62,536 nt of DNA. It comes from Acidisoma sp. L85. Its GTDB lineage: Bacteria > Pseudomonadota > Alphaproteobacteria > Acetobacterales > Acetobacteraceae. Shown here piece after piece: positions 8,668 to 61,929 of the stretch. Where the stretch lies: contig NZ_LMUQ01000064.1 in assembly GCF_009765865.1 (NCBI RefSeq), positions 106,401-168,936 on the forward strand. The letters run 5' to 3'. Position 1 is the stretch's first letter. Each line of letters starts with the position of its first letter. A model generated the notes under the pieces. That model had not been told where the DNA came from. It was given only the letters and a program-made list of their open reading frames with translations, and ran no database searches. The translations under genes were made by a program, and so were the position numbers.

Positions 8668-8785
8668 CGTCATGGCATGCGCAGGCATGCCATCCACGCC
8701 TTACCTTCGCTACGCGGGTGAAGGCGCGGATGCCCGGCCTTCGCCGCGCATGACATGGTGGGGTACGCGCCGTTCAGACCAAAGT
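8668..8785 (+). repeat. Cloverleaf palindromic repeat, copy R1
   Basis: Core at 8668-8755: CGTCAT, then hairpin GGCATGC/GCATGCC with loop GCAG, then ATCCACGCCTT pairing with AAGGCGCGGAT, then hairpin GCCCGGC/GCCGCGC (one mismatch), then ATGACA. The conserved tail runs to about 8785 (GTTCAGACCAAAG). It lies between the HIT gene and the metQ-like operon. Confidence 0.85.
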
Positions 8786-8817
8786 CGTTCTGATTTAGGC
8801 ACCGCTTCGACGCGGGT

Positions 8818-8847
8818 TTGACTGGTAATAACGCTTTTAGGTAGGAT
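8818..8847 (+). promoter_or_regulatory. Candidate sigma-70-type promoter of the metQ-like operon
   Basis: TTGACT (8818-8823) and TAGGAT (8842-8847) are 18 bases apart in an AT-rich patch that contrasts with the surrounding GC. The patch ends at AAGGA (8881-8885), 7 bases before the ATG of the substrate-binding protein gene. The match is by eye to the -35/-10 consensus. Confidence 0.55.
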
Positions 8848-8892
8848 ATTTTGTAATCCACCATATCAAATCTACCAACGAAGGATCAGCGT

Positions 8893-9729
8893 ATGTCCCA
8901 AGGAGAATACGCGCTTACGATGCCTCGACGAGGAAGGCGTCGCGCTGTCGCGGCAGGGCTGGTGGCGCTTGGCCTGTTCCTGCTCGGCCTCGTCGCCCAT
9001 GCCCGCGCCGATGAGGTATTGCGGATCGCCGGGACACCTGGCCCGATGGCGGAGGTGCTGCGTCACGCCGCCGACCTCGCCGCCAAGCAAGGGCTGAAGG
9101 TGCAGGTGGTACAATTCTCGGATTGGGTGACGCCCAATGTCGCGGTCAACGAGGGCTCGGTCGAGGCCAATCTCTATGAGCACAAGCCGTTCCTGAACGC
9201 GGCCATCAAGGCTCGTCACTTCAACCTCGTGCCCGTCGCCTCGGCGGTCGTGATGCCGATGGGCCTGTTCTCGCATAAGCTCAAAAGTCTGGACCAGCTG
9301 CAAAATGGCGAACAGGTGGCGATCGCCAATGATCCGGTGAACCGCGCGCGGGGCCTGCAGCTGTTTGAGAAGGCGAGGCTCATCACGCTCACGCCCGGCA
9401 TCGGCGATGCCGCGACGGTGAAGAACGTGACCTCCAACCCGAAGCATCTGCGGTTCATCGAACTGGAAGCGCCGCAGCTCGCCCGCGCGCTGGACGACGT
9501 GAAGGTTGCCCAGGTGAGCTACACCTTTCTCATCGCATCCGGCGGCGATCCTAATTCAGCGCTGATCGAAGATGGCGCTGGCAACCAGCATTATGCGTTG
9601 TTCTTTGTATCCAGGCCTCAAGACGCGCAGGATCCGAAACTGCTGAAGTTCATTCAGATCTTCCGGTCCGACGATGAGCGTGCCTTCATTCTCAAGCGCT
9701 ACGCTGGCGCCATTTCCCCGGCTTGGTGA
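8893..9729 (+). CDS. MetQ/NlpA-family ABC transporter substrate-binding protein
   Basis: A 278-residue periplasmic binding protein of the NlpA/MetQ family, which normally captures methionine or related sulfur compounds. A basic N-terminus (PRRGRRR) and a hydrophobic stretch lead to a signal peptidase I-type site after AHARA. There is no lipobox Cys, unlike the lipoprotein MetQ of E. coli. The family motif is seen in [20 protein letters not shown] and [25 protein letters not shown] is also typical. ATG 8893 is chosen for its AAGGA site. It starts an operon with metN- and metI-like genes and two organosulfur monooxygenases, so the ligand may be an organosulfur compound and not methionine. Confidence 0.9.
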
Positions 9730-9734
9730 TCGCG

Positions 9735-10571
9735 ATGGACCAGACGGTTCTCGACTGGCAGCCGGACCACCGTGACCAGTCGGCGCCCGTACTGCGCGTC
9801 GGCAAGGTCTCGCGCCGCTTCGGCGGCGTGACCGCGCTCGACGATATCTCCTTCACGCTGGGCGCCGGCCAGGTGCTTGGCATCATCGGTCGTTCGGGCG
9901 CCGGGAAATCCACCCTCATCCGCTGCCTCAACGGGCTGGAGCGGCCGGATGCCGGACGCATCGAGATCGAGGGACGCGACGTCACGAACCTCTCCGAACG
10001 CGGCTGGCAAAAGGAACGCCAGCGGATCGGCATGATCTTCCAACACTTCAACCTGCTTTCCACCCGCACGGTGATCCAGAATGTCGCGCTCCCGCTCAAG
10101 CTCGCGGGTGTAGCCAAAGCCGAGCGGCTGGCGCGGGCAACGGCGCTGCTTGACCTCGTGGGCCTGGCCGACAAGGCCCACGCCTATCCGGCGCATCTCT
10201 CCGGCGGCCAGAAGCAACGTGTCGGCATCGCCCGAGCCTTGGCCTCGGACCCCGCGCTGCTGCTGTGCGACGAAGCGACCTCGGCGCTCGACCCGGAGAC
10301 GACCCTCTCGATCCTCGCTTTGCTCCGGCGGATCAACGAGGAGATGGGCCTGACCATTGTCCTCATCACCCACGAGATGAACGTCGCCCGGCGCATCGCC
10401 GACCGCGTGCTGGTGCTCGCCGACGGCCGAGTCGCGGAGGAGGGACCGGTGCGGGAGGTCCTGATGGCGCCGCGCGCCGAGGAGACCCGCCAGTTGCTCG
10501 CCGCCGCCAGCCTCGGCTTCGAGGATGCGGGCCGGCCGGTGCGGGAGGTGCCGCATGGCCATTTCGCTTGA
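9735..10571 (+). CDS. MetN-like ABC transporter ATP-binding protein
   Basis: A 278-residue ATPase that powers the MetI-like permease. Walker [10 protein letters not shown] is at about residues 52-60, the Q-loop in [14 protein letters not shown], the signature [15 protein letters not shown], and Walker [15 protein letters not shown]. These match the MetN (methionine uptake) branch. The C-terminus is short and I do not see a full methionine-sensing ACT-like NIL domain: the protein ends about 50 residues after the H-loop ([15 protein letters not shown]). ATG 9735 lies six bases after the metQ-like stop; an overlapping TTG (9723) or GTG (9726) start is possible. Confidence 0.9.
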
Positions 10572-11205
10572 CGATCTGCTGACGGCGCTGTGGCAGACGC
10601 TCGAAATGGTCGGCGTCTCCAGCGTGATCGCGGCATTGCTCGGCCTGCCGCTCGCCTTGGTCATGGTTGCGACCAGCCGGCGCGGCATCGCGCCCCAGGG
10701 TGCGATCAACATGGCGCTGTCCGCCGTCGTCAACGCTATTCGCTCGGTGCCCTTCATCATCCTGCTGGTGGCGCTGATCCCCGTCACGCGCCTCATCGCC
10801 GGCACCTCGATCGGCACCGAGGCGGCCATCGTGCCGCTGACCATTGCGGCGACCCCCTATTTCGCGCGCATCGTCGAGGTTTCGCTGCGGGAGGTCGATG
10901 GCGGTTTGATCGAGGCGGTGAGGGCCATGGGCGGCAGCCGCCTCGCGGTGATGCGGGAGGTGTTGATCCCCGAGGCGCTGCCGGGCCTCATCGCCGGCTT
11001 CGTGGTGACGCTGGTGACCATGATCGGCGCTTCGGCCATGGCGGGCGTCGTTGGCGCGGGCGGGCTGGGTGACCTTGCCATCCGCTACGGCTACGATGAG
11101 TTTGACACGGGCGTCATCATCGTGGTGGTCGCTGTGCTGATCGCCTTGGTTGCGGGGGTGCAATTCCTCGGCGACCGGCTGGTTGTCCGCGTCGACCATC
11201 GCTGA
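10555..11205 (+). CDS. MetI-like ABC transporter permease
   Basis: A 216-residue inner-membrane permease with five to six hydrophobic segments. It has the MetI-type EAA loop [20 protein letters not shown] and [17 protein letters not shown] in the second membrane segment, typical of methionine-family permeases. It overlaps the end of the ATPase gene by 17 bases, which indicates translational coupling. ATG 10555 follows a GGGAGG ribosome-binding site inside the upstream gene. It completes a three-gene importer and is followed 14 bases later by the acyl-CoA-dehydrogenase-like monooxygenase gene. Confidence 0.92.
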
Positions 11206-11219
11206 AGGACTTTCGATCG

Positions 11220-15797: not shown

Positions 15798-16937
15798 TTA
15801 TCCTCGGCCGTTGACGGCGGCTCGGCCCCGCTCGACCAGCGCCTGGAAGCGGGCATGCTTTATGCTCTCAAGATATTTATTGGTGGGATTTGGGTTTGGG
15901 AGCCAGTGGATGCCGTTGAAGCTGTAAGCATCCTGCCGCAACAGGACGGCAGTGGGAAAAGGATTCGAGAAGATATATTTGGTGACGTTTGAAGGCAGGT
16001 CCGCCAAATTTTGACTGTAGTTTACTGTGCTTGGTTGAGTGAATGTAATCACGCCTGGAGCTGGCCCTCTATTATAATGGGTCCAGCTTTGCCCATGAAC
16101 TTCGGACCCGCGAAGGCCCACTTTGAGCAGGTGATCCAGCGAGGGAAAGAAAAACTCGCCATTTGCCCAGTCCTGAGCGGGAATGGTTGGCTGCCGATCA
16201 ACATCCAAAAAATATTTGTCGATCGCTGACTGCGAGATGGAACTCGTCGTTGAGGTCGTTGAGGTCGTTGAGGTCGTTGAGGTCGTTGAGGTCGTTGAGG
16301 TCGTTATTGGCGGCGATGGCAGCAGGCCCGCGACCTGCGCGGATGCCGCCGCTTTCCTTTTGACCATCTCAAAGTTGATCAGGTCGTCTCGAATCGGCAG
16401 GCCGCGATAGAGCTCCTTCAGCACGCTGCGCCTGCAATCCGAGAGCGCCTCCTCGACGTACGGCACGAGGCGCCAGTTCTGCGCCATAGCCCAGTAAGTA
16501 GCCTGTTCCCGCGTGTTCCTCATCCTGGCGTTGAAGTCTCTGGCCGCTTGCAATGCTTTGAGGACGCCCTGAAATTCACCTGCTCTTTGGCCGCTATTGC
16601 CATTCTTGAAGGCAAACCTGACGTCTTCGAGGAAACCATCGACCACCCCGTTGGTGGATCTCGGCGCGGAGCGAAAATCGTCCATCTCCATAAGGCGTTG
16701 CACGAGTCCCTCGGTCTGGAGTCTGAGGTAGTAGCTTTGGAGATCTGTGAGATTGTTGCTCGCGATGGGAAGATACGAGGCAGCCGTCTGTCTTACTGCG
16801 GGGACCTGCCCGGGAAGCGATAAGAGCTGAGAGCCAATTTGGACGGGGGGAGCCACCGGGAAAAACGGACCAGCGATGGAACCCATTTGCGAACCCGCCG
16901 ATAGCGGGGTTGTTCCGTTGAGCGCTGGCGCGTACAT
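15798..16937 (-). CDS. Hypothetical protein with a (TTS)n low-complexity linker
   Basis: I do not recognise this 379-residue protein. The N-terminal 70 residues are rich in Pro, Gly, Ser and Ala, followed by a mostly helical part (LQSYYLRLQTEGLVQRLMEMDD through LKELYRGLPIRDDLINFEMV; shown here only by its ends) and a linker of repeated Thr-Thr-Ser triplets encoded by seven 9-bp DNA repeats. The C-terminal 130 residues hold several aromatic residues (QSWTHYNRGPAPGVITFTQP). No signal peptide is seen. GC content and codon choice look lower than in neighbours. The open frame can start further upstream at 17033, inside the GMC gene; ATG 16937, just past that gene's stop, is preferred. Acquisition by transfer is likely. 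Confidence 0.55.
   Translation of the reverse strand: MYAPALNGTTPLSAGSQMGSIAGPFFPVAPPVQIGSQLLSLPGQVPAVRQTAASYLPIASNNLTDLQSYYLRLQTEGLVQRLMEMDDFRSAPRSTNGVVDGFLEDVRFAFKNGNSGQRAGEFQGVLKALQAARDFNARMRNTREQATYWAMAQNWRLVPYVEEALSDCRRSVLKELYRGLPIRDDLINFEMVKRKAAASAQVAGLLPSPPITTSTTSTTSTTSTTSTTSTTSSISQSAIDKYFLDVDRQPTIPAQDWANGEFFFPSLDHLLKVGLRGSEVHGQSWTHYNRGPAPGVITFTQPSTVNYSQNLADLPSNVTKYIFSNPFPTAVLLRQDAYSFNGIHWLPNPNPTNKYLESIKHARFQALVERGRAAVNGRG
16252..16314. repeat. Seven perfect 9-bp tandem repeats (GAGGTCGTT)
   Basis: Seven uninterrupted copies of GAGGTCGTT, with an imperfect eighth unit (CTCGTCGTT) immediately before. The unit is a multiple of three, so changes in copy number keep the reading frame of the overlapping minus-strand gene, in which it encodes Thr-Thr-Ser triplets. 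Confidence 0.95.
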
Positions 16938-16950
16938 GCCGACATCCGTC

Positions 16951-18630
16951 TCATTGAGTGCAAACACCGCAAATACTGGACGAATACTTACCGATCGGTT
17001 TCCAATTGCTATCTTCAACGACCATCTTCGCACCTTGTTCAGCGATCATGGCGGTGGGCGTGTTGGTATTGCCCGAGGTGATGGTCGGCATGATCGACGC
17101 GTCGATGACGCGGAGGCCCGCGATTCCCAGCACGCGAAGACGTTCATCGACCACCGCGAGCGGATCGCTCGGCAGCCCCATCTTCGCCGTGCCGACGGGG
17201 TGGAAGATCGTCGTGCCGATAATGCCCGCCGCGCGATGGAGCGACTCGTCGTCATCGCCCACCGTCGGGCCGGGCAGGTATTCCTCGGGCGAGAAGGGCG
17301 CGACCGCCTTCTGCGACATCAGCCGCCGCGTCACGCGGATGGCGTCGGCCGCGACGCGGCGATCCTCTTCCGTCGTCAGATAATGCGGCGCGATCATGGG
17401 CGCGTCGCGCGGCTCGGCGGAGCGCAGCCGAACCGTGCCGCGCGAGGTCGGGCGCAGGTTGCAGGCCGAGACCGTAATGGCGGCGAAGCGATGGAGCGGA
17501 TCGCCGAACTTGTCGAGCGACAACGGTTGAATGTGAAACTGGATGTTGGCGCGCTCCTGTCGCGGATCGGATCGCGTGAAGATCCCCAATTGCGACGGCG
17601 CCATGGTCAGTGGTCCTCGCCGGCGCAGCGCGTAGTCGATGCCCATCCAGCCACGCCGGAACAGCGAATAATAGATGTCGTTCATCGTCCGCACGCCGCG
17701 CATCTTGTAGATGGCGCGCTGCTGAAGATGGTCCTGCAAATTGCCGCCGACGCCGCGCAGCGCGTGAACCATCGCGATGCCGTGCGGGGCAATCGCCTCC
17801 GCATCGCCGACGCCCGAAAGCTGCAGGATTTGCGGCGAGCCGATGGCGCCCGCGCAAAGGATCACCTCCCGCGCTTTCGCCTCGGTGCGCGCGCCGTTAC
17901 GCAGGAAACGGATACCCGTGGCTCGCTTGCCCTCGAAAATCACGCGCTCGACATGCACGCCGGTTTCCAGTCGCAGATTCGGGCGGTGCAGAACCGGCTT
18001 GAGAAAACCGCGTGCGGCCGACCAGCGGCGACCATGTTTCTGGTTGACGTGGAACGGCCCGGAACCCTCGTTATCGCCGGTATTGAAGTCGTCGATCTTA
18101 CGGATGCCCATCTGCGCCGCCGCCTCACGCACCGCTTCTAGCACCGCCCAGGCGATGCGCGGCGCCTCGACGCGCCAGCCGCCGCCGACGCCATGGAATT
18201 CGCTCGCGCCGAGAAAATGGTCCTCCAGCCGCTTGAACGCTGGCAGCACGTCGTCCCATCCCCAGCCGGTCAAGCCGAGCTGCCGCCAATGGTCGTAATC
18301 CGCCCCCTGCCCGCGCATCGCGACCATCGCGTTGATCGAGGATGACCCGCCGATGACCCGGCCGCGCGGATAGGCAAGCGACCGGCCGTTGAGCCCGGCT
18401 TCGGGTTCCGTGCGGAACATCCAGTCGGCGCGCGGATTGCCGATGGCGAAGAGATAGCCGACCGGGATGTGGAACCAAATCCAATTGTCCATGCCGCCTG
18501 CCTCCAGCAGCAGGACCCGGCGGCGCGGATCGGCGGAAAGCCGGTTCGCCACGATGCAGCCGGCGGTTCCGGCGCCTACGATGATGGTGTCGTAATCGCC
18601 GTCGAGAAGGCTCGTCATGGACGGTGCCAC
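16951..18630 (-). CDS. GMC family FAD-dependent oxidoreductase (choline dehydrogenase-like)
   Basis: A 559-residue flavoprotein of the glucose-methanol-choline family, oxidising an alcohol with FAD. The Rossmann motif is VGAGTAGCIVANRLS (about residues 17-31), with the family signatures YPRGRVIGGSSSINAMVAMRG and GAIGSPQILQLSGVG, and the active-site His region TTIFHPVGTAKMG. The native-looking end GNTNTPTAMIAEQGAKM is followed by about 20 extra residues (VVEDSNWKPIGKYSSS...) with lower GC coding, which suggests the original stop was replaced at a junction near 17020. The gene follows fdsD on the same strand by 33 bases. The substrate is unknown. Confidence 0.88.
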   Translation of the reverse strand: MAPSMTSLLDGDYDTIIVGAGTAGCIVANRLSADPRRRVLLLEAGGMDNWIWFHIPVGYLFAIGNPRADWMFRTEPEAGLNGRSLAYPRGRVIGGSSSINAMVAMRGQGADYDHWRQLGLTGWGWDDVLPAFKRLEDHFLGASEFHGVGGGWRVEAPRIAWAVLEAVREAAAQMGIRKIDDFNTGDNEGSGPFHVNQKHGRRWSAARGFLKPVLHRPNLRLETGVHVERVIFEGKRATGIRFLRNGARTEAKAREVILCAGAIGSPQILQLSGVGDAEAIAPHGIAMVHALRGVGGNLQDHLQQRAIYKMRGVRTMNDIYYSLFRRGWMGIDYALRRRGPLTMAPSQLGIFTRSDPRQERANIQFHIQPLSLDKFGDPLHRFAAITVSACNLRPTSRGTVRLRSAEPRDAPMIAPHYLTTEEDRRVAADAIRVTRRLMSQKAVAPFSPEEYLPGPTVGDDDESLHRAAGIIGTTIFHPVGTAKMGLPSDPLAVVDERLRVLGIAGLRVIDASIMPTITSGNTNTPTAMIAEQGAKMVVEDSNWKPIGKYSSSICGVCTQ

Positions 18631-26607: not shown

Positions 26608-26742
26608 CGACATGGCACACGAAGGCGCGCGGGGGCACCCCGTGCCATCCACGCCTTGCCTTGTCACGCAAGCAGGGCGTGGATGCCCGGCCTTCGCCGA
26701 GCATGACGTGGTGGAACGAGCAGGGTTCAAGCTAAAGACATG
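26608..26742 (+). repeat. Cloverleaf palindromic repeat, copy R2
   Basis: Core at 26608-26708. The first hairpin is enlarged (GGCAC...GTGCC with extra GC-rich bases between the arms); ATCCACGCCTT pairs with a CGTGGAT arm and the second hairpin is GCCCGGC/GCCGAGC with one mismatch. ATGACG closes it. The tail GGTTCAAGCTAAAGACAT ends at about 26742, six bases before the stop of the SMP-30-like gene. It lies between convergent genes. Confidence 0.85.
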
Positions 26743-26747
26743 CCATC

Positions 26748-27653
26748 CTACTGGTTCGGGATGGAATAAATCTTGCCAAGGTAAGGGGATTTGTCGATCT
26801 GATCGAGCGCCGTCACATAAACCGTCTTGTCGTCAGGACTGAAAGCCAGGTTCGGCACTTGAGGGGATGGCAGGCTCAGCGTGCGAAGCAGCTTGCCGTC
26901 CGCGTTCACGATAAAGATCTTCCCGACCAGGGGAGCCTTCACGTCACGCGGACTCTGCCCGATGTAGATCTCGCCCTTCGAGTCGATCTTCACGCCATCC
27001 GGCCAGATATGCACGACATGGTTGGTAAGATCATCCAGGTTCAGGAAAACGCGCCGATCCGATAGTGAGCCGTCCTCGGCGATCTTGAATTGCAGCAGCC
27101 TGTTATCCTCGGTTTCGACGACATAGAGGATCTTTCCGTCGTTCGAGACCACGAGACCATTGGCATTATGCAGATCCACCGCCTCCTGCGTGATGGTTTC
27201 GTCTTTGGCGATGTAGAATACCTTGCCGTCGATCACCGGTCCCTGATCGCCCGAGGCGGTGAAATAGATCCCGCCCTTCTTGTCCGGGGCGAAATCATTC
27301 GGCCCGACGAACTTGTTGCCATCCTTGTCCTGCGTATAGGGTTTCAGCGTCTTGCCCTCGGCCGAAACTCGCCCGATCGTGCCGTTATCGTAGCAGGTGA
27401 CGATGAAGTCGCCGCGCACGGTGGGAACCACGGCGGATTCGCCGCAACCCTTGTCGGTATTGAAGATGACGTTCTTCGTGCCGTCCCAGGTTGTGATCGT
27501 GTTGCGGTCATATTCGATGTACCAGAGCTTGCCCTTGTACCAAACTGGCCCTTCAGGATAATGCGCATCATTGTTCAGAATCTTGATGCCATCGGCATGA
27601 GCAAAAGACGCCAGACTGGTCGCGAAGAACAGTCCGAGCAGGAACTTCTTCAA
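26748..27653 (-). CDS. Exported SMP-30/gluconolactonase-like protein
   Basis: A 301-residue protein of the SMP-30/gluconolactonase/LRE family, a six-bladed beta-propeller that usually hydrolyses sugar lactones with a bound divalent metal. The signal peptide (MKKFLLGLFFATSLASFAHA) implies a periplasmic location. Metal-site segments are visible: PEGPVW with the Glu ligand, VGPNDFAPD, ANGLVVSNDGKILYVVE and GVKIDSKGEIYIG. It lies 35 bases downstream of the binding-protein gene on the same strand, so it may act on the imported compound or a lactone derivative in the periplasm. Confidence 0.85.
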   Translation of the reverse strand: MKKFLLGLFFATSLASFAHADGIKILNNDAHYPEGPVWYKGKLWYIEYDRNTITTWDGTKNVIFNTDKGCGESAVVPTVRGDFIVTCYDNGTIGRVSAEGKTLKPYTQDKDGNKFVGPNDFAPDKKGGIYFTASGDQGPVIDGKVFYIAKDETITQEAVDLHNANGLVVSNDGKILYVVETEDNRLLQFKIAEDGSLSDRRVFLNLDDLTNHVVHIWPDGVKIDSKGEIYIGQSPRDVKAPLVGKIFIVNADGKLLRTLSLPSPQVPNLAFSPDDKTVYVTALDQIDKSPYLGKIYSIPNQ

Positions 27654-41032: not shown

Positions 41033-42520
41033 TCAGCCGAGGGCTGCGAGGGCCATGATGCGTTCCTGGCTGAAATCGGCCTTGGCGACCATCCCGGCGA
41101 TGCGGCCTGTCCGCATCACCAGGACACGATCGCAGAGACCCAGCAGCTCCAGCATGTCGGAAGACACGACCAGGATCGCCGCTCCGCGCTCCGCCAAGGC
41201 GTTGATGAGCCGATAGACCTCGACTTTCGCACCCACATCGATACCGCGCGTCGGCTCGTCGAGCAGGAAGATGCGCGGCTTCGTGGTCAAGGCGCGAGAC
41301 AGTACGACCTTCTGCTGGTTGCCGCCCGACAGCGACCGGACAAGCTGGCGAATGCCCGGCGTGCGGATGCGCAGGTCTTCGACAGCGTGCTCCGCCAGCC
41401 GGTCGATCCGGCCTTGCGCGAGGATCGAGCGCAGCCAGGAAACCTTGGTGAGGGTGGACATCGCGACATTGGTGCGGAGCGAGAAGGGCATCACCAGACC
41501 CTCGCCCTTGCGGTCCTCTGGCACTAGCGCGACCCCGGCGGAAAGCGCCTGGCGCGGCGAGCGAATATGGCGCTCCCGCGACTCGACATGGATCTTGCCC
41601 TTGGTCGCGGGTAGGGCGCCGTAGATCGTCTTGAGCACTTCGGTTCGGCCCGCGCCGATCAGGCCGCCGAGGCCGACCACCTCGCCGGCCCGAAGCTCGA
41701 AGGAGACATCCTCGAAGCGGCCGGCGGAACTGAGCCCCTCGACCTGGAGCAGCACTTCGCCCAGCGTGGCGTGGCGGGCGGGGAACAGCGCCTCGATCGG
41801 GCGATTGACCATCGCCTGGATCAGCGCGTCCTCGGTCCAATCCTTGGTCGCTCGGGTTTCCACGGCGGCGCCGTCGCGCAGCACCGTCACGCGGTCGCAG
41901 ATCTCGAAGACTTCTTCCAGATGGTGGCTGATGAAGACCAGCCCGACGCCGGCATTCCGCAGCGTCGCGATCGTGGCGAACAGGATGCGCTGCTCGGCCG
42001 TGGTCAGCGTCGCCGTCGGCTCGTCCATGACGATGACCCGCGCCTCGCGGGACAGCGCGCGGGCGATCTCCACCAGCTGCTGCTGCGCGATGCCGAGCCG
42101 GCGAACCAGCGTGCGTGGCGAAACGGAGAGGCCGACGCGGGCGAGCAACCGGCTCGCCTCGCGGTTCAGCGCGGCGCGGCGTATCCCGCCGAGCCTGCCG
42201 CGCGGCAGATGGCCGAGGAAGATGTTCTCGGCCACCGAACGCTCGGGGATGAGGCTGAGTTCCTGGTGGATCACGATGATCCCGGCATCCAACGCGTCTT
42301 TGGGACGCCTTGGGCTGAATGGCACGCCCTCAAGATGCAACTGGCCCGCATCGGGGCGAAACACCCCGGCGAGAATCTTCATCAAGGTGGACTTCCCGGC
42401 GCCATTCTCGCCGACGATACCGAGCACCTCCCCCCGGTCGAGGGAGATGCTGACATCGGAGAGAGCTTTCACCCCGGGGAACCCCATGGAGATGCCCTGC
42501 ATCTCCAGCAGCCGCGTCAT
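41033..42520 (-). CDS. Ribose-type sugar ABC transporter ATP-binding protein (two ATPase domains)
   Basis: A 495-residue tandem ATPase of the RbsA/MglA type. The first domain has Walker A GENGAGKST (37-45) and Walker B VIVMDEPTATLT. The second has degenerate Walker A (LGGLIGAGRTEVLK), signature LSGGNQQKVVLSRAL and Walker B IFLLDEPTRGIDVG. An upstream open frame exists, but ATG 42520 (MTRLLEMQG) gives the usual start. It lies 30 bases before the permease. The 270-base gap upstream, to the binding-protein gene, contains two cloverleaf repeats. Confidence 0.94.
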   Translation of the reverse strand: MTRLLEMQGISMGFPGVKALSDVSISLDRGEVLGIVGENGAGKSTLMKILAGVFRPDAGQLHLEGVPFSPRRPKDALDAGIIVIHQELSLIPERSVAENIFLGHLPRGRLGGIRRAALNREASRLLARVGLSVSPRTLVRRLGIAQQQLVEIARALSREARVIVMDEPTATLTTAEQRILFATIATLRNAGVGLVFISHHLEEVFEICDRVTVLRDGAAVETRATKDWTEDALIQAMVNRPIEALFPARHATLGEVLLQVEGLSSAGRFEDVSFELRAGEVVGLGGLIGAGRTEVLKTIYGALPATKGKIHVESRERHIRSPRQALSAGVALVPEDRKGEGLVMPFSLRTNVAMSTLTKVSWLRSILAQGRIDRLAEHAVEDLRIRTPGIRQLVRSLSGGNQQKVVLSRALTTKPRIFLLDEPTRGIDVGAKVEVYRLINALAERGAAILVVSSDMLELLGLCDRVLVMRTGRIAGMVAKADFSQERIMALAALG

Positions 42521-42567
42521 GCTGTCAGGCCCGCATTTGCGCGGGGTCTTACGGCCAAGTCCTGTTG

Positions 42568-42632
42568 CCATCCACGCCTGCCCACGACTTCACTAGGAAG
42601 GCGTGGATGCTCGGCCTTCGCCGAGCATGACG
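42568..42632 (+). repeat. Cloverleaf palindromic repeat, copy R3a (right half)
   Basis: A truncated copy: ATCCACGCCT pairs with AGGCGTGGAT, then hairpin GCTCGGC-CTTC-GCCGAGC and ATGACG. The first hairpin and CGTCAT are missing. It lies between the sugar binding-protein gene and its ATPase gene. Confidence 0.8.
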
Positions 42633-42692: not shown

Positions 42693-42760
42693 CGTCATGG
42701 CACGCGAGGGCGTGCCATCCACGCCTTGCCTTAGTCGAGCAAATAAGTCCTGGACGCCCG
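42693..42760 (+). repeat. Cloverleaf palindromic repeat, copy R3b (left half intact)
   Basis: CGTCAT is followed by hairpin GGCACGC-GAGG-GCGTGCC and ATCCACGCCTT, but the right half is degenerate (TGGACGCCCG). It sits 33 bases beyond the stop codon of the sugar binding-protein gene, and 61 bases from R3a. Confidence 0.75.
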
Positions 42761-42792
42761 ATCCTCACCGCATCCAACAACATATTGTCGCC

Positions 42793-45450: not shown

Positions 45451-46437
45451 GTGCATATTCTCATCCTAGGCGCTGCCGGCATGCTCGGCCGCAAGCTCAC
45501 CGATCGGCTGGTGAGCGGGACGGCGGGCCTGTCGCCCGACACACTGACGCTGGTCGATGTCGTTGAGCCGCTGGCGCCCGCCGGCTTCAAGGGCAATGTG
45601 ACGCGTCAGGCGGTGGACCTTTCGGCCGCCGGCGTTGTCGATCGCTTCGTCGCGACGCGCCCCGACATCATCTTCCACCTCGCCGCCATCGTTTCCGGCG
45701 AGGCCGAGGCGGACATGGACAAGGGTTACCGCGTCAATCTCGATGGCACGCGGTATCTGCTGGAGGCCATCCGGCAGGAAGGCGCGCGAGCCAATACGGA
45801 GAAGTATTACCCGAGGGTGGTCTTCACTTCCTCGATCGCGGTTTTCGGCACGCCGATGCCGCCGGTCATTCCGGATGACTTCAACCTCACGCCGCTCTCC
45901 AGCTATGGCACCCAGAAGGCCATCGGCGAACTGTTGCTGGCGGATTACAGCCGCCGAGGCTTCCTCGATGGCATCGGCCTTCGCCTGCCGACCATCTGCG
46001 TGCGGCCGGGCAAGCCGAACCTGGCGGCATCCGGCTTCTTCTCCTCCATCATCCGCGAGCCTTTGGTGGGTCAGCCGGCGGTGCTGCCGGTCAGCGACAA
46101 GGTACGCCACTGGTTCGCCAGCCCGCGCGCCGCGATTGGCTTCCTCATCCATGCCGCGACCTGCGACCTCGCGCCCTTGGGCGGCAGGCGAAGCCTGGCG
46201 TTGCCGGGCGTCACGGCCACCGTCGCCGAGGAGATCGAGGCGCTGCGAAGCGTCGCCGGCGAGGCCGCGACCCGGCTGATCACCCGCAAAGCCGATCCCG
46301 CGATCGAACGTCTCGTCAGCAATTGGCCAGAGGCTTTCGACACCCAGCGCGCACTCGCGCTCGGTTTCCGCGCCGATGCGTCCTTCGAGGCGATCGTGCG
46401 CGTGCATATCGAGGAAGAGCTGGGCGGCCGCGTTTAG
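45451..46437 (+). CDS. DenD-like NAD-dependent dehydrogenase (extended SDR)
   Basis: A 328-residue extended SDR resembling D-erythronate dehydrogenase DenD, which makes 2-oxo-D-erythronate in tetronate catabolism. Motifs: LGAAGMLGRKL at residues 6-16, LAAIVSGEAEADMDKGYRVN typical of this branch, and the catalytic YGTQK. The end of the protein (ASFEAIVRVHIEEEL) also fits. The start GTG 45451 follows GAGGAG by 9 bases. It lies after tal, but the tal terminator and a 137-base gap suggest a separate transcript. The other genes of the tetronate pathway (OtnK, OtnC, OtnI) are not in the window. Confidence 0.82.
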   Translation: MHILILGAAGMLGRKLTDRLVSGTAGLSPDTLTLVDVVEPLAPAGFKGNVTRQAVDLSAAGVVDRFVATRPDIIFHLAAIVSGEAEADMDKGYRVNLDGTRYLLEAIRQEGARANTEKYYPRVVFTSSIAVFGTPMPPVIPDDFNLTPLSSYGTQKAIGELLLADYSRRGFLDGIGLRLPTICVRPGKPNLAASGFFSSIIREPLVGQPAVLPVSDKVRHWFASPRAAIGFLIHAATCDLAPLGGRRSLALPGVTATVAEEIEALRSVAGEAATRLITRKADPAIERLVSNWPEAFDTQRALALGFRADASFEAIVRVHIEEELGGRV

Positions 46438-46467
46438 CGTCGGTGTCTTCGACGCTAAGCCGCGGCC

Positions 46468-46612
46468 AAAGGATCCGTCATTTCACGCAAAGGCGGGGCG
46501 GCCCCCCGCGTGCCGTCCATGCCTCGCCTTCGTCGAGCAAGGAAGGCGTGGATGCTCGGCCTTCGCCGAGCATGACGTGGCGGAATTGGCGCGGTTCAAA
46601 CCAAAGACATCC
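46468..46612 (+). repeat. Cloverleaf palindromic repeat, copy R4
   Basis: Core at 46476-46577. The first hairpin is divergent and enlarged (TTTCACGC...GCGTGCC); GTCCATGCCT pairs imperfectly with AGGCGTGGAT; the second hairpin is GCTCGGC-CTTC-GCCGAGC, closed by ATGACG. Head AAAGGATCCGTCA and tail GGTTCAAACCAAAGACATCC are clear. It lies between the DenD-like gene and the glycosyltransferase gene. Confidence 0.85.
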
Positions 46613-46681: not shown

Positions 46682-47605
46682 ATGCGCATCCTCTTCATCT
46701 CGTCCAATCGCATTGGGGATGCCGTCATTACCTGCGGCGTTCTGGATCACCTCATCCGAACCTACCCCGAAGCGCGCTTCACCATCGCCTGCGGTCCTGC
46801 CGCACGGGACGTTTTCGCGCGGATGCCGAACCACGAGCGCACGATCATCGTCGTCAAGCATCGGCGCGACCTGCATTGGTTGAGGCTGTGGCGCGACGCG
46901 GCCTTTACCTTCTGGGATCTCGTGGTCGATATGCGCGGCTCCCTCATCGCCTATCTTCTGCCGACGCGCAGGCGTGCCGTGCGGCGGCGGGTTCCGGGGC
47001 GGATGTACGAGCAATACGCCGCCATCCTCAAAATTAAACCGCCACCGCTGCCGATCGTCTGGACGGCGCCGGAGGATCGCGCGAAGGCGGCAACGCTGTT
47101 GCCGCCGGGCCGGCCAGTGATCGGCTTCGGCGCGACCGCGAATTGGGCGCCGAAGGTCTGGGCCGCCGACCGTTTCGCGGAACTGTTTCGCAGGCTCGCC
47201 GAGGGACCGCTGCCGAATGCCATCCCCGCCGTCTTCGCGGGACCTGGAGACGCGGAGCGCGACATGGCCGCACCTTTGCTCGCGGCACTGCCGGGCGCGC
47301 TCGACTTCCGTGGCAACCTCATCATCCCGGAGGTGGCCGCCTGCATCCAGCGCTGCGCCCTCTATGTCGGCAATGACAGCGGGCTCATGCACCTCGCCGC
47401 CGCGTCCGAAACACCGACGATCGGTTTGTGCGGGACGACGATCGATCGTGCGGAGGAAATGGCCCCGGCCGGCAAGCATGCGGCCTGGGCCTTGGCGGAC
47501 GGACCGTCGATGGAGAGCCTTTCCGTCGATACGGCCTACGCGGCCTGCATGCGAATGCTGGACACGGTGCCGGAGCGGACGGCGACGATATTGGCGGCGC
47601 GTTGA
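46682..47605 (+). CDS. Glycosyltransferase family 9 (heptosyltransferase-like)
   Basis: A 307-residue GT-B-fold protein like the ADP-heptose:LPS heptosyltransferases that build the LPS core at the inner face of the inner membrane. Markers are SSNRIGDAVITCGVL near the N-terminus, GFGATANWAPKVWAADRFAEL, and the C-terminal nucleotide site YVGNDSGLMHLAAASETP. An open frame extends 102 codons upstream through the R4 repeat, but ATG 46682 gives the family start and excludes the repeat. No other LPS genes are adjacent. Confidence 0.88.
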   Translation: MRILFISSNRIGDAVITCGVLDHLIRTYPEARFTIACGPAARDVFARMPNHERTIIVVKHRRDLHWLRLWRDAAFTFWDLVVDMRGSLIAYLLPTRRRAVRRRVPGRMYEQYAAILKIKPPPLPIVWTAPEDRAKAATLLPPGRPVIGFGATANWAPKVWAADRFAELFRRLAEGPLPNAIPAVFAGPGDAERDMAAPLLAALPGALDFRGNLIIPEVAACIQRCALYVGNDSGLMHLAAASETPTIGLCGTTIDRAEEMAPAGKHAAWALADGPSMESLSVDTAYAACMRMLDTVPERTATILAAR

Positions 47606-47610
47606 GGCGG

Positions 47611-47740
47611 GATGTCTTTGGTTTGAACCGCGCTCATCCCACCACGTCATGCTCGGCGAAGGCCGAGCATCCACGCCTTTGCTTGCTTCACGAAGGTAAG
47701 GCGTGGATGGCACGCCTTCGCGTGCCATGACGGATCTTTC
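47611..47740 (-). repeat. Cloverleaf palindromic repeat, copy R5 (best preserved)
   Basis: Core at 47645-47732 (88 bp), inverted relative to the other copies. The outer stem CGTCAT/ATGACG is intact; hairpins are GCTCGGC-GAAG-GCCGAGC, ATCCACGCCTT with AAGGCGTGGAT around a 20-base loop, and GGCACGC-CTTC-GCGTGCC, all without mismatches. The tail GATGTCTTTGGTTTGAACC is on the left, the head GGATCTTTC on the right. It lies between convergent genes. Confidence 0.92.
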
Positions 47741-53163: not shown

Positions 53164-53309
53164 CAAAGATTCGTCATGGCATGCGAAGGCATGCCATCCA
53201 CGCCTTGCGGCGACGGCCCCGCCTTTGTCATGCAAGCGAAGGCGTGGATGCTCGGCCTTCGCCGAGCATGACGAGGTCGAGTGAGTACGGCTCAGTACCA
53301 AAGACACCC
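53164..53309 (+). repeat. Cloverleaf palindromic repeat, copy R6
   Basis: Core at 53172-53273. Outer CGTCAT/ATGACG, hairpin GGCATGC-GAAG-GCATGCC, ATCCACGCCTT with AAGGCGTGGAT around a long loop, and hairpin GCTCGGC-CTTC-GCCGAGC are all intact. Head CAAAGATTCGTCAT and tail CAGTACCAAAGACACCC flank it. It lies between convergent genes; the tail ends 9 bases before the next stop codon. Confidence 0.92.
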
Positions 53310-53317
53310 AGCCCAAC

Positions 53318-53998
53318 CTATCGGGTTGGCGGCGAGCCCAGCACGCCGGCGGTATAGCTTTCGACGACCTCCGCGATCGGCAGCCCGGAAACGGCGTGAA
53401 GAACCGCCTCGTTCGTGATGACGTGAGCGGGGAAGGCGAGATCCCCGCGAATATCCGGCGCCGCCGAACGCGACGACCAGAAAACTTGCGACGACAGTGT
53501 CGTCCGCCGGAAATGCAGCGCGCTGATGACCCGCCCAAAAGGCGTGTCGGTGCTTTGGAGCAGCCGGTTCATCTCGGTCGTAAGCCGGTCGGCGACGTAC
53601 CAGTTGTCTGCTTCCGAGAGCAACTGGCCCCCGCATAGCAGACGAACATGCCGGTAGTGGATCGTCTCGCCCGAGGTGATGCGGAGGTGGGTCCGCACAT
53701 CGGGCGGCGCGGGTTTATCCGGAGCCGGTGGCCGCTCGGCAATGACGCGAGGGTCCCGCGCGATCTGGTAGGTCTTGCACCAGCTTTCGAGCACCGCCGT
53801 CGCGCTCGGCTGCGTCAGCAATAGGTTTTCGAGGCGCTTTAGGCGGAACTCGGCCTCGGCCCGCGACGCCGGGTTGTCAGGCCACGCGACCGCGTGGTCA
53901 GCCGCCTTCACGGGATACGCCTGCAACAGCAGCAATGAGAGCGCCGCGAGACCCGTCGGCAGGCGCCACCGGGGGCGGCGTTTGGGATGCGGGTCCAT
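53318..53998 (-). CDS. Exported protein with chorismate lyase-like fold (UbiC-like)
   Basis: A 226-residue protein with a signal peptide (hydrophobic LPTGLAALSLLLLQ, cut near PVKAADH). The mature part follows the chorismate lyase (UbiC) pattern: SATAVLESWCKTYQIA at the start, RHVRLLCGGQLLSEADNWYV, and TTEMNRLLQSTDTPFGRVIS, equivalent to the UbiC strand-loop-helix ending TPLGRYLF. UbiC itself is cytoplasmic and makes 4-hydroxybenzoate, so an exported homologue implies another ligand or reaction. The Arg and Glu of the UbiC active site cannot be assigned with certainty. It lies 8 bases after accC on the same strand and converges with DUF1127. Confidence 0.65.
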   Translation of the reverse strand: MDPHPKRRPRWRLPTGLAALSLLLLQAYPVKAADHAVAWPDNPASRAEAEFRLKRLENLLLTQPSATAVLESWCKTYQIARDPRVIAERPPAPDKPAPPDVRTHLRITSGETIHYRHVRLLCGGQLLSEADNWYVADRLTTEMNRLLQSTDTPFGRVISALHFRRTTLSSQVFWSSRSAAPDIRGDLAFPAHVITNEAVLHAVSGLPIAEVVESYTAGVLGSPPTR

Positions 53999-54005: not shown

Positions 54006-55346
54006 TCAGCCGCCCGCGACGAGACGCTCGAGCCAGTGGATCGTGTAGTCGCCAGCCTGAAAGGTCGGATCGTCCAGGATCCGGCGATGCAGGGGCAGGG
54101 TGGTTTTGACGCCGCTCACCACGAACTCGTCGATCGCACGCCGCATGCGCGCTATGGCCTGCGCGCGGTTGGGCGCGTGGACGATCAGCTTGGCAATCAT
54201 CGAATCGTAATAAGGCGGCACCCGGTAGCCGCCATAGAGCGCGCTATCGACCCGCACCCCGAGTCCGCCCGGCGGATGGTAGACGCTCACCACGCCCGGC
54301 GTGGGCATGAAGGTCTCGGGATCCTCGGCATTCACGCGGCATTCGATGGCATGGCCGGAGAACTGGATGTCCTCCTGCGCGTAGCCAAGCGGCTCCCCGA
54401 CGGCGATGCGGATCTGCTCGCGCACCAGATCGACGTTGCAGACCATTTCGGTGATCGGATGCTCGACCTGCAGACGCGTGTTCATCTCGATGAAGGCGAA
54501 CTGCCCGTCCTGATACAGGAATTCGAGTGTCCCGGCGTTGCGGTAGCCGAGTTCCTTGAGCGCATTGGTCACTGTCACACCCAGCGCGTCGCGCTGCTCG
54601 GCGGACAAAGCAGGCGAACCGGCCTCTTCCAGAACCTTCTGATGGCGGCGTTGCAGCGAGCAGTCACGCTCTCCGAAATGAACCACATTGCCGTGGGTGT
54701 CGGCGAGCACCTGCATCTCGATATGGCGCGGCCGGTCGAGATACTTCTCCATGTATACGGCGTCGTTGCCGAAGGCCGCCTTGGATTCCGCGCGGGCCAC
54801 GGACCAGGCTTCGGAGAGGTCGGCGGCGGTCGGCGCGACCTTCATGCCACGTCCGCCACCGCCCGCCGCCGCCTTGATCAGCACCGGGTAGCCGATGCGG
54901 GACGCGACTTCCCGCGCCGCTTCCAGATCGGGCAAGGCGCCATCTGATCCCGGCACCAGCGGCACGCCCAGCCGCATCATCGCCGTCTTGGCCGCGATCT
55001 TGTCGCCCATCATGCGGATGTGGTCGGCCGAGGGGCCGATGAAGGCGAAGCCATGCACCTCCACCATCTCCGCGAAGCTAGCATTCTCGCTGAGGAAGCC
55101 ATAGCCAGGATGGATGGCGTCGGCCCCCGTGACGCTCGCGGCAGAAAGAATTGCCTGTATGTTGAGATAGCTGTCCCGCGCCGCCGGCGGCCCGATACAG
55201 ACGCTTTCATCCGCGAGGCGCACATGCATCGCGTCGGCATCGGCCGTCGAATGCACGGCGACGGAGGCAATCCCCATCTCGCGGCAGGCGCGCTGGATGC
55301 GAAGCGCGATTTCTCCGCGATTGGCGATCAGGATTTTGCGGAACAT
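54006..55346 (-). CDS. accC: Acetyl-CoA carboxylase, biotin carboxylase subunit
   Basis: AccC carboxylates biotin on AccB with ATP and bicarbonate, the first half of malonyl-CoA synthesis. The 446-residue protein has the N-terminal [28 protein letters not shown], the Gly-rich ATP lid [13 protein letters not shown], the second signature [16 protein letters not shown], and the catalytic [12 protein letters not shown]. It follows accB after 8 bases in the conserved alphaproteobacterial order aroQ-accB-accC. Confidence 0.97.
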
Positions 55347-58088: not shown

Positions 58089-58090
58089 GG

Positions 58091-58113
58091 AAAATGCGCG
58101 GGCAGCGCATTTT
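58091..58113 (-). terminator. Hairpin terminator of the second sugar-importer operon
   Basis: AAAATGCGC and GCGCATTTT make a perfect 9-bp stem around a 5-base loop, 11 bases after the stop of the ATPase gene on the minus strand. On that strand the stem ends in TTTT, as in intrinsic terminators. The 37-bp inverted repeat follows at once. Confidence 0.65.
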
Positions 58114-58124
58114 CAAATGGTCTC

Positions 58125-59917: not shown

Positions 59918-59987
59918 GATAATTCCAATACGCAGTAGCCGCCCGAAGGCCGGATGAGGCGAGCGGATGAACCGCTCGCCTCCATAA

Positions 59988-61094
59988 TCAGCCGGAGATC
60001 GGGCCGGACGACGTTACGATCTGTTGCTGGCCAGAATTGCCCTCGTAGCGAGTCTTCGTCGCCAGATAGGGCTTCACGCCGTCCTTGTTGATGAACTTCA
60101 GGCCGGTATTGATATCGGCCGGTCCAACCAATCCGCCGGATGCCTTGAACAGGAACATCTCGAGCACCGTGTAGAAGCCTTGGAGGTAGGGCTGCTGGTC
60201 GATGGTGAAATCCATCTGGCCCTGGCTGATCAGCTCCAGCGTTTTCGGCAGCAGGTCGAAACCGCCGCCATGCACGCCCTTCGCGACGAGGCCATACTGC
60301 GCCATCGTTTCGGCCACACCGAGGGTGGTGCCGCCATCGACGGCATACATGCCCTTCACGTCCTGGTGGCCGAGGTAATACGCCTTGACCTTGCTGATCT
60401 CCTCATTGACCGTCGGGCCGCTGGCGATTTCCTCGATCGTGATGTCCTTGCCGGACTTGGCGATCGCCGCCTTGGCGCCGTCGAAACGCGGCTGGATATT
60501 CAGCTGGCCCGGTGTCGCGATGAATAGCGCCACCTTGCCGGAGCCCACTTCGTCGGCGATGCGCAGGCCCATCTGATAGCCGGCCTGGTAGAGATCCTGC
60601 CCGATATAGGCGAGGCGCTTGTTGGAGCTGCCCAGCGGCACATCGGCATTATAGGCGAAAACCGGAATGCCGGCGGCGAGGGCGCGATCTGTCGGGCCGT
60701 CAAAGGCTTTCGGATCGACAAGGCATGCCGCGATGGCATCCGCCTTGCCCGCGATGGCGGCATTCATGGAGTTGACCATCTGGGCGGCATCGCTGGTTTG
60801 CGATCCGGTCCATTGATAGGTGCATCCCAGCAGCGCGCAGGCATCGGCGATGCCGTATTGCGTCGGCACGAAGAAGGGGTTCGTCGTCACGTGATTGACG
60901 AAGACGAACTTCCAGCGCGGATGCTCCGGGAAGGCGGTGGAGGCAGCGCGCGCCTGCCTCGCCACACCCGCGAGCAGAGCGGCGGCGGAGCCGGCAATGG
61001 CACCCGTCAGCATGCCGCGCCGCTGTAACCCCTGCGGCGCCGCAGATTCCTCGACAGTTTCGCTTGGCGTCTGTTGATCGCGATCCAAATCCAT
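59988..61094 (-). CDS. Sugar ABC transporter substrate-binding protein (RbsB-like)
   Basis: A 368-residue periplasmic binding protein. The N-terminal 28 residues are acidic and precede QRRGMLTGAIAGSAAALLAG, a Tat-like signal (twin Arg, then a hydrophobic run) cut near RQARAA. The mature part resembles inositol/ribose/autoinducer-2-type binding proteins: VFVNHVTTNPFFVPTQYGIADAC, DAIAACLVDPKAFDGP, GIPVFAYNADVPLGSSN, DEVGSGKVALFIATPG. It is the first gene of the importer; the 197 bases upstream to the divergent UraD-like gene hold its promoter, not recognised by eye. Confidence 0.92.
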   Translation of the reverse strand: MDLDRDQQTPSETVEESAAPQGLQRRGMLTGAIAGSAAALLAGVARQARAASTAFPEHPRWKFVFVNHVTTNPFFVPTQYGIADACALLGCTYQWTGSQTSDAAQMVNSMNAAIAGKADAIAACLVDPKAFDGPTDRALAAGIPVFAYNADVPLGSSNKRLAYIGQDLYQAGYQMGLRIADEVGSGKVALFIATPGQLNIQPRFDGAKAAIAKSGKDITIEEIASGPTVNEEISKVKAYYLGHQDVKGMYAVDGGTTLGVAETMAQYGLVAKGVHGGGFDLLPKTLELISQGQMDFTIDQQPYLQGFYTVLEMFLFKASGGLVGPADINTGLKFINKDGVKPYLATKTRYEGNSGQQQIVTSSGPISG

Positions 61095-61291
61095 AGTGTC
61101 CCTCCGTGACCGCTGATCCGGCGCGACCTGAGGCCACGCCGCCAGACGGGGTTTTTGCTTGAAAACGGGGGCGCTCGAACCCGCCCACGCGCCACGACCT
61201 GGCTGCCGTTGCGAGGAGACATTGAAGCGCCAGCTTTTGCCCTGTCAATGGTCGGACAAGTGACCGGCCGTGTATCCTTAGGGAGACTTCC

Positions 61292-61780
61292 ATGACGACA
61301 CCCGAAGACGGTTCCGGACGCCAGCCGATGGCGGCCGTGAACGAGATGCCGACGGAGGAGTTCGTCGAGGCTTTCAGCGATCTCTGCGGCAGCGGCTGGA
61401 TTGCCCCGCGGTTGGCAGGGCAGCGGCCTTTCGCGTCGCGCCACCTCATGCTCAGCGCCTTGACCGCGGTGGTCAGAAACGCGCCCGAGGAAGATCAGAA
61501 GGCGTTGCTGGCTTGTTTCGCGGCCGCGCCGAGTTTGCCCAAGGACGATGCTGAGACCGCTAAGCGGCGATCAGCTTACGAAGCGCGATTTGGCCAGCCC
61601 TTCATCATGGCGCCTGATGGAGGTCGCTCACACGAGGCCGTCAAAGCCGCACTCCGGGCGCGCCTCCACGCGACCGAGGCCGAGGAGCGGCAGACGGCGA
61701 TTGATGAAATTGTGAAGATTATCGGCGCACGTCTGGATCGCCTCGTCGCGGATGGACCGGGAGGCGAACGGGCTGCCTAG
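61292..61780 (+). CDS. UraD/OHCU decarboxylase-like protein lacking catalytic residues
   Basis: A 162-residue protein similar to UraD, which decarboxylates OHCU in purine (urate) degradation. Shared family features are MPTEEFVEAFSDLCGSG, APRLAGQRPFASRHLML, APEEDQKALLACF, the block AYEARFGQPFIMAPDGG, and the C-terminal helix EIVKIIGARLDRLV. The catalytic His segment (HPDLA in the family) is replaced by AAAPS, and the SxxEQxxAG helix with the catalytic Glu is missing as a deletion of some 20-25 residues. So it should not be an active UraD. ATG follows AGGGAG. It is divergent from the sugar-importer operon. Confidence 0.7.
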   Translation: MTTPEDGSGRQPMAAVNEMPTEEFVEAFSDLCGSGWIAPRLAGQRPFASRHLMLSALTAVVRNAPEEDQKALLACFAAAPSLPKDDAETAKRRSAYEARFGQPFIMAPDGGRSHEAVKAALRARLHATEAEERQTAIDEIVKIIGARLDRLVADGPGGERAA

Positions 61781-61845
61781 GTGACTCGCACTGGAGCCGC
61801 CTAGCGCAGCACATCCATTGTTTGAGCAGCGCCCACTGTTTACCT

Positions 61846-61929
61846 CGTCATGCTCTGCGAAGGCAGAGCATCCACGCCTTGCTTGCCCGACGAAGAAGGC
61901 GTCATGGCACGCCTTCGCGTGCCATGACG
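61846..61929 (-). repeat. Cloverleaf palindromic repeat, copy R7
   Basis: Outer CGTCAT/ATGACG intact. Hairpin GCTCTGC-GAAG-GCAGAGC differs from the usual GCTCGGC/GCCGAGC by a compensating G:C to T:A change. ATCCACGCCTT faces an altered partner (AAGGCGTCAT). The other hairpin is GGCACGC-CTTC-GCGTGCC. The conserved tail is absent. It lies between convergent genes. Confidence 0.9.

Follow-up and report, generated by a model that had tools for sequence, protein, structure and literature searches.

REP heterodimers framed by TA-ended terminal repeats in Acidisoma: probable IS630-type miniature elements with stop codons at their ends

Introduction

Repetitive extragenic palindromes (REPs) tagged with CGTC form a class that "apparently lack[s] a dedicated transposase" and that was reported to be missing in Acetobacteraceae (Di Nocera, De Gregorio, Rocco 2013, PMC3733652). 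In the same paper, the palindromes around the dimers of H. neapolitanus are taken as targets. Here we analyze a stretch of 62,536 nucleotides from Acidisoma sp. L85, a member of that family (contig NZ_LMUQ01000064.1, positions 106,401 to 168,936; hereafter "the window"), in which eight copies of a dispersed intergenic repeat occur. The 88-bp core of this repeat fits the head-to-head (HH) heterodimer of CGTC-tagged REPs as PMC3733652 defines it. We consider it likely that the full copies are non-autonomous miniature inverted-repeat transposable elements (MITEs) of the IS630 type, with TA at their ends, that were moved in trans and whose core was kept after insertion.

The likeness to the CGTC REPs described in 2013 extends to the CGTC tag, a stem beginning with AT, a 4-nt loop and a CCA tail, and further to head-to-head dimers with complementary spacer ends, heterodimers, a location at gene ends and an occurrence mostly in alphaproteobacteria (PMC3733652). 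The class as a whole has stems of 8-9 bp and loops of 4-5 nt. Unlike the four families set out there, which have 9-bp stems and 5-nt loops, the module described here combines a 9-bp stem with a 4-nt loop and fits none of them exactly. It differs also in context: the dimer here lies inside a putative MITE with terminal inverted repeats and IS630-like ends, unlike the dimers in the available text of that paper.

Other small elements share parts of this plan. Br-REP1 and Br-REP2 of Bradyrhizobium likewise have three palindromes (three stem-loops), overlap the 3'-untranslated regions of convergent genes and occupy ~200 sites (Hahn et al. 2016, PMC5082802); their sequence is different, and no terminal repeats, TA ends or transposase are described in the available text of that study. 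The Correia/NEMIS and RUP elements resemble ours in their length of 100-200 bp, their terminal inverted repeats and their TA ends, and the pneumococcal RUP was assigned to the IS630-Spn1 transposase on the basis of similar ends and TA targets (PMC2229807). Unlike the elements studied here, they have no REP heterodimer, and the accessible part of that source describes for them no preference for the target YTAR (Y, pyrimidine; R, purine) or for stop codons. A precedent comes from Coxiella burnetii, whose QMITE2 is a REP-containing MITE of 150-190 bp; its small copies, which lack terminal repeats, resemble plain REPs (PMC5896051). In contrast to the present case, its REP is of the GTAG type, its direct repeats are 7-11 nt long and of variable sequence, and no IS630 link is described in the portion of that paper at hand.

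Among the papers listed by the literature searches, with subscription journals mostly outside their coverage, none connects CGTC REPs with IS630 or reports the pattern of YTAR and stop codons. Lichenicola cladoniae is presumably a member of the Acetobacteraceae. A 2025 survey counts 1,369 REPs in it; therefore, REPs as such are not new to this family.

Results and Discussion

The repeat unit and its ends

The core is built from two modules of one kind, for which ATGCTCGGC-GAAG-GCCGAGCAT-CCA displays a 9-bp stem that begins with AT, a 4-nt loop and a CCA tail. In each unit, CGTC is terminal and not part of the unit's hairpin (columns 1-4 of the alignment are (nearly) invariant), and the CGTC tags of both modules pair together as the outer stem of the dimer. 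The arms fall into three classes, designated A (GGCAYGC), C (GCTCGGC) and E (CCTCSGC or CTTCGGC). On the loop side of their stem, some arms bear an extra GC-rich hairpin of the GGCGGGGCGGCCCC type (26608-26708, 46476-46577).

From the window's own genome (G000; 6.38 Mb, with the window on its contig C2) we examined 905 kb, most of it fetched around copies; the window is part of it, as are 400 kb of contig C83 that were chosen regardless of copies, and 462 kb of the 905 kb were not fetched around cores. Genome-wide, the half-module pattern CGTCATG-N(10..26)-CATCCACGCCTT occurs 145 times, and 0 times for the reversed control; the examined sequence holds 92 doublets. A covariance model of the core, built from 65 doublets of G000 (2 of the 65 being window copies), has 150 matches in G000 (all 150 scored candidates, both strands counted). 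Among the four congener genomes compared (G001 to G004), the same model has 33 matches in G002, 38 in G003, 50 in G004 and 0 in G001.

The A-arm copies of G000 continue on each side of the core as conserved flanks of ~41-42 nt, which start with TAG and finish with CTA. The C-side consensus is TAGAGCGGGATGTCTTTGGTTTGAACCGTGCTCATTCCACCA and the A-side consensus, read inwards, is TAGAGCGTGATGATCTAATACTGAACCGCGACCCAAAGATC; the two evidently form an imperfect terminal inverted repeat. Both flanks are >60% identical to the consensus in 39 of 45 A+C copies, and neither is in 3 of the 45. At the recognizable G000 ends, Y precedes TA in 35 of 37 cases. We did not find these flanks apart from the core in the 905 kb: a recorded core adjoins 47 of 49 left-flank matches and all 32 right-flank matches, and the remaining two left-flank matches are at degraded or single modules. 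Free-standing outer palindromes that might be pre-existing targets were sought in the examined sequence and were not found.

The congener G002 contains near-identical 161-bp units that follow the same plan in other letters and have sharp TA ends, as well as a second element family of 168-198 bp. With an end-search motif that itself began with TA (up to 3 mismatches), 36 G002 elements at 35 loci have both ends; Y precedes the left TA in 35 of the 36, and R follows the right TA in all 36. Thus, the target is YTAR, with TA at both ends. Judged on its sequence, the 161-bp unit is a mini-transposon (a MITE) lying in YTAR. A comparison of eight G002 elements with G004 gave one filled/empty pair, three sites that have the same stop codon without an element, two that have an element in G004 as well and two that are not comparable. 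At the filled/empty site, G004 reads GGCCGTTAACCCTTG and G002 reads GGCGGC-TAG...TTA-GCCCTTG; the TTAA there is the stop of both converging genes, and both retain a stop after insertion. This one pair is the basis for a duplication of TA on insertion, which we infer to be the general rule.

An autonomous element was sought in G002 through 18 regions of apparently unpaired ends; 17 proved to be paired short elements, and 1 was cut by a contig end. Two structural variants were recorded in the same genome. The 198-bp elements (L268, L283) have both arms extended relative to a 170-bp form, and at L268 and L278 adjacent element ends have one TA in common, as would result if an element inserted into the terminal TA of its neighbor.

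Stop codons at the element ends

YTAR reads TAA or TAG on both strands, and its frequency is 1.8 per kb in the 400 kb of G000, against ~8 expected from base composition alone. Because the word is a stop on both strands and is scarce in a GC-rich genome, many of the sites that spare genes are stop codons. In G002, an open frame of at least 100 codons has its stop at 24 of 54 testable ends, and any other offset between -100 and +60 has at most 3 such stops. Twelve of 19 testable G002 elements have at least one stop end, compared with 234 of 729 YTAR sites in the 400 kb of G000 (Fisher p = 0.011); YTAR sites in G002 loci, element ends included, hold a stop at 73 of 248. In G000, the stop of such a frame falls 40-44 nt from the core on 38 of 144 long-form sides, and TAG accounts for 27 of these 38 stops, versus 36 of 118 stops elsewhere within 120 nt. 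It has already been noted that the ends of GTAG REPs often supply TAG stops (PMC3733652). The present elements differ in that the stop comes from the terminal repeat together with the target word.

Candidate movers

Y1_Tnp (PF01797), the domain of the REP-associated tyrosine transposases (RAYTs), was detected in 5 of 14 control genomes and was not found in the window's own genome; a RAYT, whose co-occurrence had been expected, is therefore rejected as the mover there. Among eight further genomes, the domain was found in one, G004, which has one such gene and carries a related repeat family; it was found in 0 of 3 of the congeners G001-G003. That single gene is at L121. Rhizobiales are described as having none or few tnpA-Y1 genes (PMC6006769).

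Terminal repeats were also sought at 18 PF13358 (DDE_3) loci of the genus, with only ends starting TAGAG, TAGGG, TAAAG or TAGAA allowed; a screen of 38 transposase loci with 9-base exact seeds did not recover IS630 ends. Paired ends were found at 4 of the 18 loci. Two of these, both in the window's own genome, resemble the ends of the mini-elements:

L286:979-2028: IS630 element of 1050 bp, DDE_3
L290: IS630 element of 1041 bp, matching that of L286

In these elements the transposase is encoded in two overlapping frames. Their ends are TAGAGCAGGATGGTTTTGGCTTGAATC and TAGAGCGTGATGCATTTAGCTTGAAGC, and they are inserted in CTAA and CTAG. All four IS630 elements for which ends were found have Y and R as outer bases (TA being required by the search). 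Compared with the mini-element, the ends of the L286 element are identical at 22/28 positions on the C side (shuffle p < 5e-5) and 19/28 on the A side (5e-4); crosswise identity is 21/28 and 17/28, so the two sides are not sharply distinguished. As a query in the 905 kb, the left end of L286 has 21 matches (<=9 mismatches), with 15 at element flanks and 10 exactly 42 nt from the C-side core; the best of the six non-flank matches has 5 mismatches. The right end has 15 matches, 10 of them at flanks, and the reversed controls have 1 for each end. An IS630 transposase of the window's own genome is the candidate mover in trans.

Similar ends occur on plasmids. The G002 ends match annotated IS630 ends in Agrobacterium vitis (2 of 5 records) and an annotated IS630 end in Roseomonas gilardii (1 of 10 among the matches listed, the best 10 of 28). 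In the Roseomonas element, one end reads TAGAGTCTGTCAGGTT and another, ~1.05 kb away, is similar to it (20/30). C-TA and TA-G border this element, which lies on the TAG stop of a major facilitator superfamily (MFS) gene. Whole elements compared with plasmids by BLAST gave no match, and a G002 end compared with viral contigs gave 0 stretches. As a separate observation, the exact 28-base C module is present in two IMG/VR viral contigs (L400:1405-1432 and L401:5755-5782).

IS5-type transposases (PF13586) are present in all four genomes searched, and two IS5-type elements of G002 have ends that begin with GAGCGC. A MITE derived from an IS5-type element, instead of from IS630, is nevertheless very improbable: the IS5-type ends of G002 continue as GAGCGCMTTTCAAAACC, unlike those of the mini-elements, their flanks read as a 3-bp TNA repeat where the mini-elements share only TA, and the IS630 ends match the mini-elements better. 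The GAGCGCMTTTCAAAACC ends, with an apparent TNA duplication (TTA, TAA), are at the G002 loci L308 and L312.

Folding and conservation of the core

The preliminary description had the core fold as a four-way cloverleaf, with an outer CGTCAT/ATGACG stem and with two outer hairpins that are inverted copies of one module. This plan is the RNAalifold consensus fold of the 65 doublets; the outer stem is paired in it, compensatory changes agree with it, and the relation between the two hairpins is borne out. The cloverleaf is not the minimum-energy fold of every copy, however. Single-copy folding of six of the eight window copies yielded it in 2 of 6 as DNA on one strand (47645 and 53172) and in 7 of 12 strand-folds as RNA, with other folds preferred by the 26608 copy and by one strand of the 8668 copy. 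Further, the outer stem has been lost in the 61846 copy.

Base pairing of the core across six genomes is strongly supported. Changes on both sides occur in 24 of 29 pairs, and 97.0% of cells are paired, versus 75.9% in shuffles and 32-45% in slid controls, in an alignment of 52 sources and 119 rows, fitted to the model, in which most copies appear on both strands. The letters change while the cells stay paired; thus, the pairing is kept, and relatives keep it with other letters rather than keeping the sequence without the pairing. We also considered G-U versus A-C mismatches, seen in the consensus fold, as a sign of RNA function; one variant dominates, and the argument was dropped.

The 92 doublets comprise 65 A+C, 15 C+E, 8 A+E, 2 A+A, 1 E+E and 1 C+C. 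Their arms are identical in 0 of 92 (9.7% under random pairing) and of different class in 88 of 92 (same class under random pairing: 39%), and the longest perfect inverted repeat per doublet is 11 bp in the median and at most 23 bp. This inequality may in part be plain descent from a heterodimeric founder. As a universal rule it is ruled out by a CGTC homodimer of Sphingomonas hankookensis (G060, locus L347) whose perfect inverted repeat spans 29 bp; that genome tolerates equal arms.

For the 45 A+C copies, all lacking extra hairpins, identity to the consensus is 97.6% and 97.3% in the modules and 75.2% and 74.0% in the flanks (random 55%). As a cross-check against the module-based discovery of doublets, we took 42 exact A modules with no partner required; 39 of them have a partner among the 92 doublets. 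Their best nearby partner is 95.6% identical on average (random 69.8%) and their A-side flank 71.8% (random ~55%; partner versus flank, p = 1.8e-8). With modules ~96-98% alike and flanks 72-75% alike, the core has probably been kept after insertion. A burst followed by even drift would not give such a difference, whereas selection on the core or repeated homogenization would. We favor a role for the retained core as a structure that serves the 3' ends of the genes on both sides.

Origin of the elements

In the mechanism that we propose, the unit would be ~160-200 bp long and consist of TA, a ~40-nt imperfect terminal inverted repeat, the REP heterodimer core with its paired spacer, a second terminal repeat and TA. 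An IS630-family (DDE) transposase, acting in trans, would cut at the terminal repeats; insertion would take place at the TA inside YTAR, the TA would be doubled, and the element's first base, G, would rebuild TAG on either side. After insertion the terminal repeats would drift, the REP modules would stay nearly invariant, and the cloverleaf would probably serve as a two-way 3'-end structure for flanking, often converging, genes. The proposal starts from what is observed: the architecture, the pairing, the YTAR/TA ends, the stop codons at these ends, one filled/empty pair and similar-ended IS630 elements in the genome.

Several observations weigh against it. A terminal motif is recognizable on 37 of 146 long-form sides of G000, and inspection by eye reveals no clear flanks in the C+E subfamily of that genome (15 of 92 doublets). 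The match to the IS630 ends is one of similarity, not identity; the plasmid matches are individually marginal (E 0.5-2); two further Agrobacterium plasmid matches that were inspected have no annotated IS630; and no IS630 with G002-type ends was found in G002, whose four PF13358 matches are on small contigs. In the single filled/empty pair, the insert includes part of a second end (17 nt). For three other G002 sites, the gene in G004 ends on the same codon but uses TGA, and the ancestral YTAR is thus not seen there; one of these three reads CCCTAA in G003. The enrichment of stops over random YTAR sites is about twofold; a choice of YTAR combined with selection thus suffices, and a special aiming at stop codons is not needed. 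Finally, the dimers of S. hankookensis (G060) and of an alphaproteobacterial metagenome-assembled genome (G062) have no shared flanks by eye. We therefore confine the MITE reading to this genus and do not extend it to the whole CGTC class.

These flankless dimers, the C+E subfamily and the conservation of the core modules far above the flanks would all suit a different history, in which the core alone is mobile, as a REPIN-like dimer (REP doublet forming hairpins) moved by a RAYT, and the outer repeats are pre-existing target palindromes, as PMC3733652 has it for H. neapolitanus. We judge this improbable, given that PF01797 was not detected in the own genome or in G001-G003, that no flanks were found in the 905 kb without a core or a degraded or single module, and that the G002 copies are near identical over their whole 161 bp up to sharp TA ends. 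Nor is it likely that the repeat is simply a structured RNA, or a bidirectional terminator or mRNA-end element, that is selected at gene ends and spread by ordinary recombination rather than by transposition. The 3' location, the strong covariation and a core better conserved than its flanks are what such an element would display; near-identical copies at unrelated sites, precise TA borders and the filled/empty orthologous pair are signs of insertion, and the window has 0 Rfam matches, with no family above its gathering score. Possibly this idea and the MITE reading combine, such that the element was mobile first and then kept for its structure.

It is conceivable, if doubtful, that CGTC REP dimers as a class are the remains of IS630-type MITEs that moved by means of their terminal repeats into YTAR at stop codons, whose ends then decayed and whose cloverleaf was kept as a two-way 3'-end element. 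If so, older families would look like REPs without a transposase. Scanning of 80 named loci with a general detector gave 7 cloverleaf-like dimers, versus 1 in the reversed control, but those of G060 and G062 lack shared flanks. For at least one bacterial genus, the proposed IS630-type mobility gives a testable answer to the open question of 2013, namely what moves CGTC repeats. It also outlines a simple route to a harmless transposon, in which the target word YTAR is a stop on both strands and the element's first base restores the codon. Further, with equal arms almost absent and the core better conserved than its own ends, the role of the folded core is directly testable.

Copies in the window

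The preliminary description assigned eight copies in the window to one repeat family. All eight are in the sequence where it placed them, and the covariance model matches every one on both strands (E 7.9e-22 to 0.0031). The copies and associated features are as follows.

8668..8755, minus: core with C arm right and A arm left (93.9 bits)
8797: TA at the expected C-side end of the 8668 copy
26608..26708, minus: core, A arm with an extra GC-rich hairpin (68.5 bits)
26709..26750, minus: C-side terminal repeat, 42 nt, of the 26608 copy
42568..42632 (model match 42515-42632), minus: half to whole core
42693..42779, minus: core, A module intact, C module decayed (56.1 bits)
46435..46475, minus: A-side terminal repeat, 41 nt, of the 46476 copy
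46476..46577, minus: core, A arm with an extra GGCGGGGCGGCCCC-type hairpin (66.8 bits)
47603..47644, plus: C-side terminal repeat, 42 nt, of the 47645 copy
47645..47732, plus: core, the highest-scoring copy, a cloverleaf as DNA and RNA (111.9 bits)
53172..53273, minus: core, central loop enlarged, a cloverleaf as DNA and RNA (99.6 bits)
53274..53320, minus: C-side flank of the 53172 copy, 47 nt (5 more than usual)
54006-55346: biotin carboxylase gene; the 13 best named matches of its product (78-82% identity) are labeled Acetobacteraceae or belong to genera of that family, which makes the host very likely a member
61846..61929, plus: core, right module rearranged, with the outer stem lost and the A hairpin longer (79.7 bits)

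The intergenic and mostly 3' location that had been noted agrees with the Pfam-supported neighbors, and the family is not restricted to these few copies, as the genome-wide half-module count makes clear. The borders had been drawn too narrowly, since most A-arm copies reach to TAG/CTA on either side; to the earlier picture are now added the terminal repeats outside the core, the TA ends and the likeness to IS630. A density of about one copy per 9 kb describes the window, with 8 in 62.5 kb. Elsewhere the density is uneven, with 12 matched places in the 400 kb of C83 (two of them short, at 49 and 52 nt).

Three ends, each exactly 41-42 nt from its core, coincide with gene stops. The last three bases of the repeat at 26709..26750 (26748-26750) are the TAG stop of a converging gene for an SMP-30/gluconolactonase (26748-27653, minus); at this end, a base other than the expected Y lies beyond TA. 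The first three bases at 46435..46475 (46435-46437) are the TAG stop of an epimerase gene (45451-46437) that ends 3-4 codons before its orthologues in three congeners, and thus the element seems to have provided a new stop. A glycosyltransferase gene that ends at 47605 has its stop in the first three bases at 47603..47644 (47603-47605), which now read TGA. A fourth stop lies 47 nt from its core: the last three bases of the 53274..53320 flank (53318-53320) are the TAG stop of a minus-strand open reading frame, 53318-53998 (no Pfam match), and they are less certain as the terminal-repeat end of the 53172 copy.

The 42568 and 42693 copies lie between two codirectional genes, in an intergenic space of ~280 nt in the window versus 14-41 nt in G001, G002 and G003. 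The left arm of the 42568 copy is poorly formed, and the CGTCATG at 42515 sits at the start codon of an ATP-binding cassette (ABC) gene; "half-core" is therefore an equally good description of that copy. At 16246-16308 of the window, within the open frame 15798-17033 (minus), there is a nine-base tandem repeat, GTCGTTGAG, of about six to seven units.

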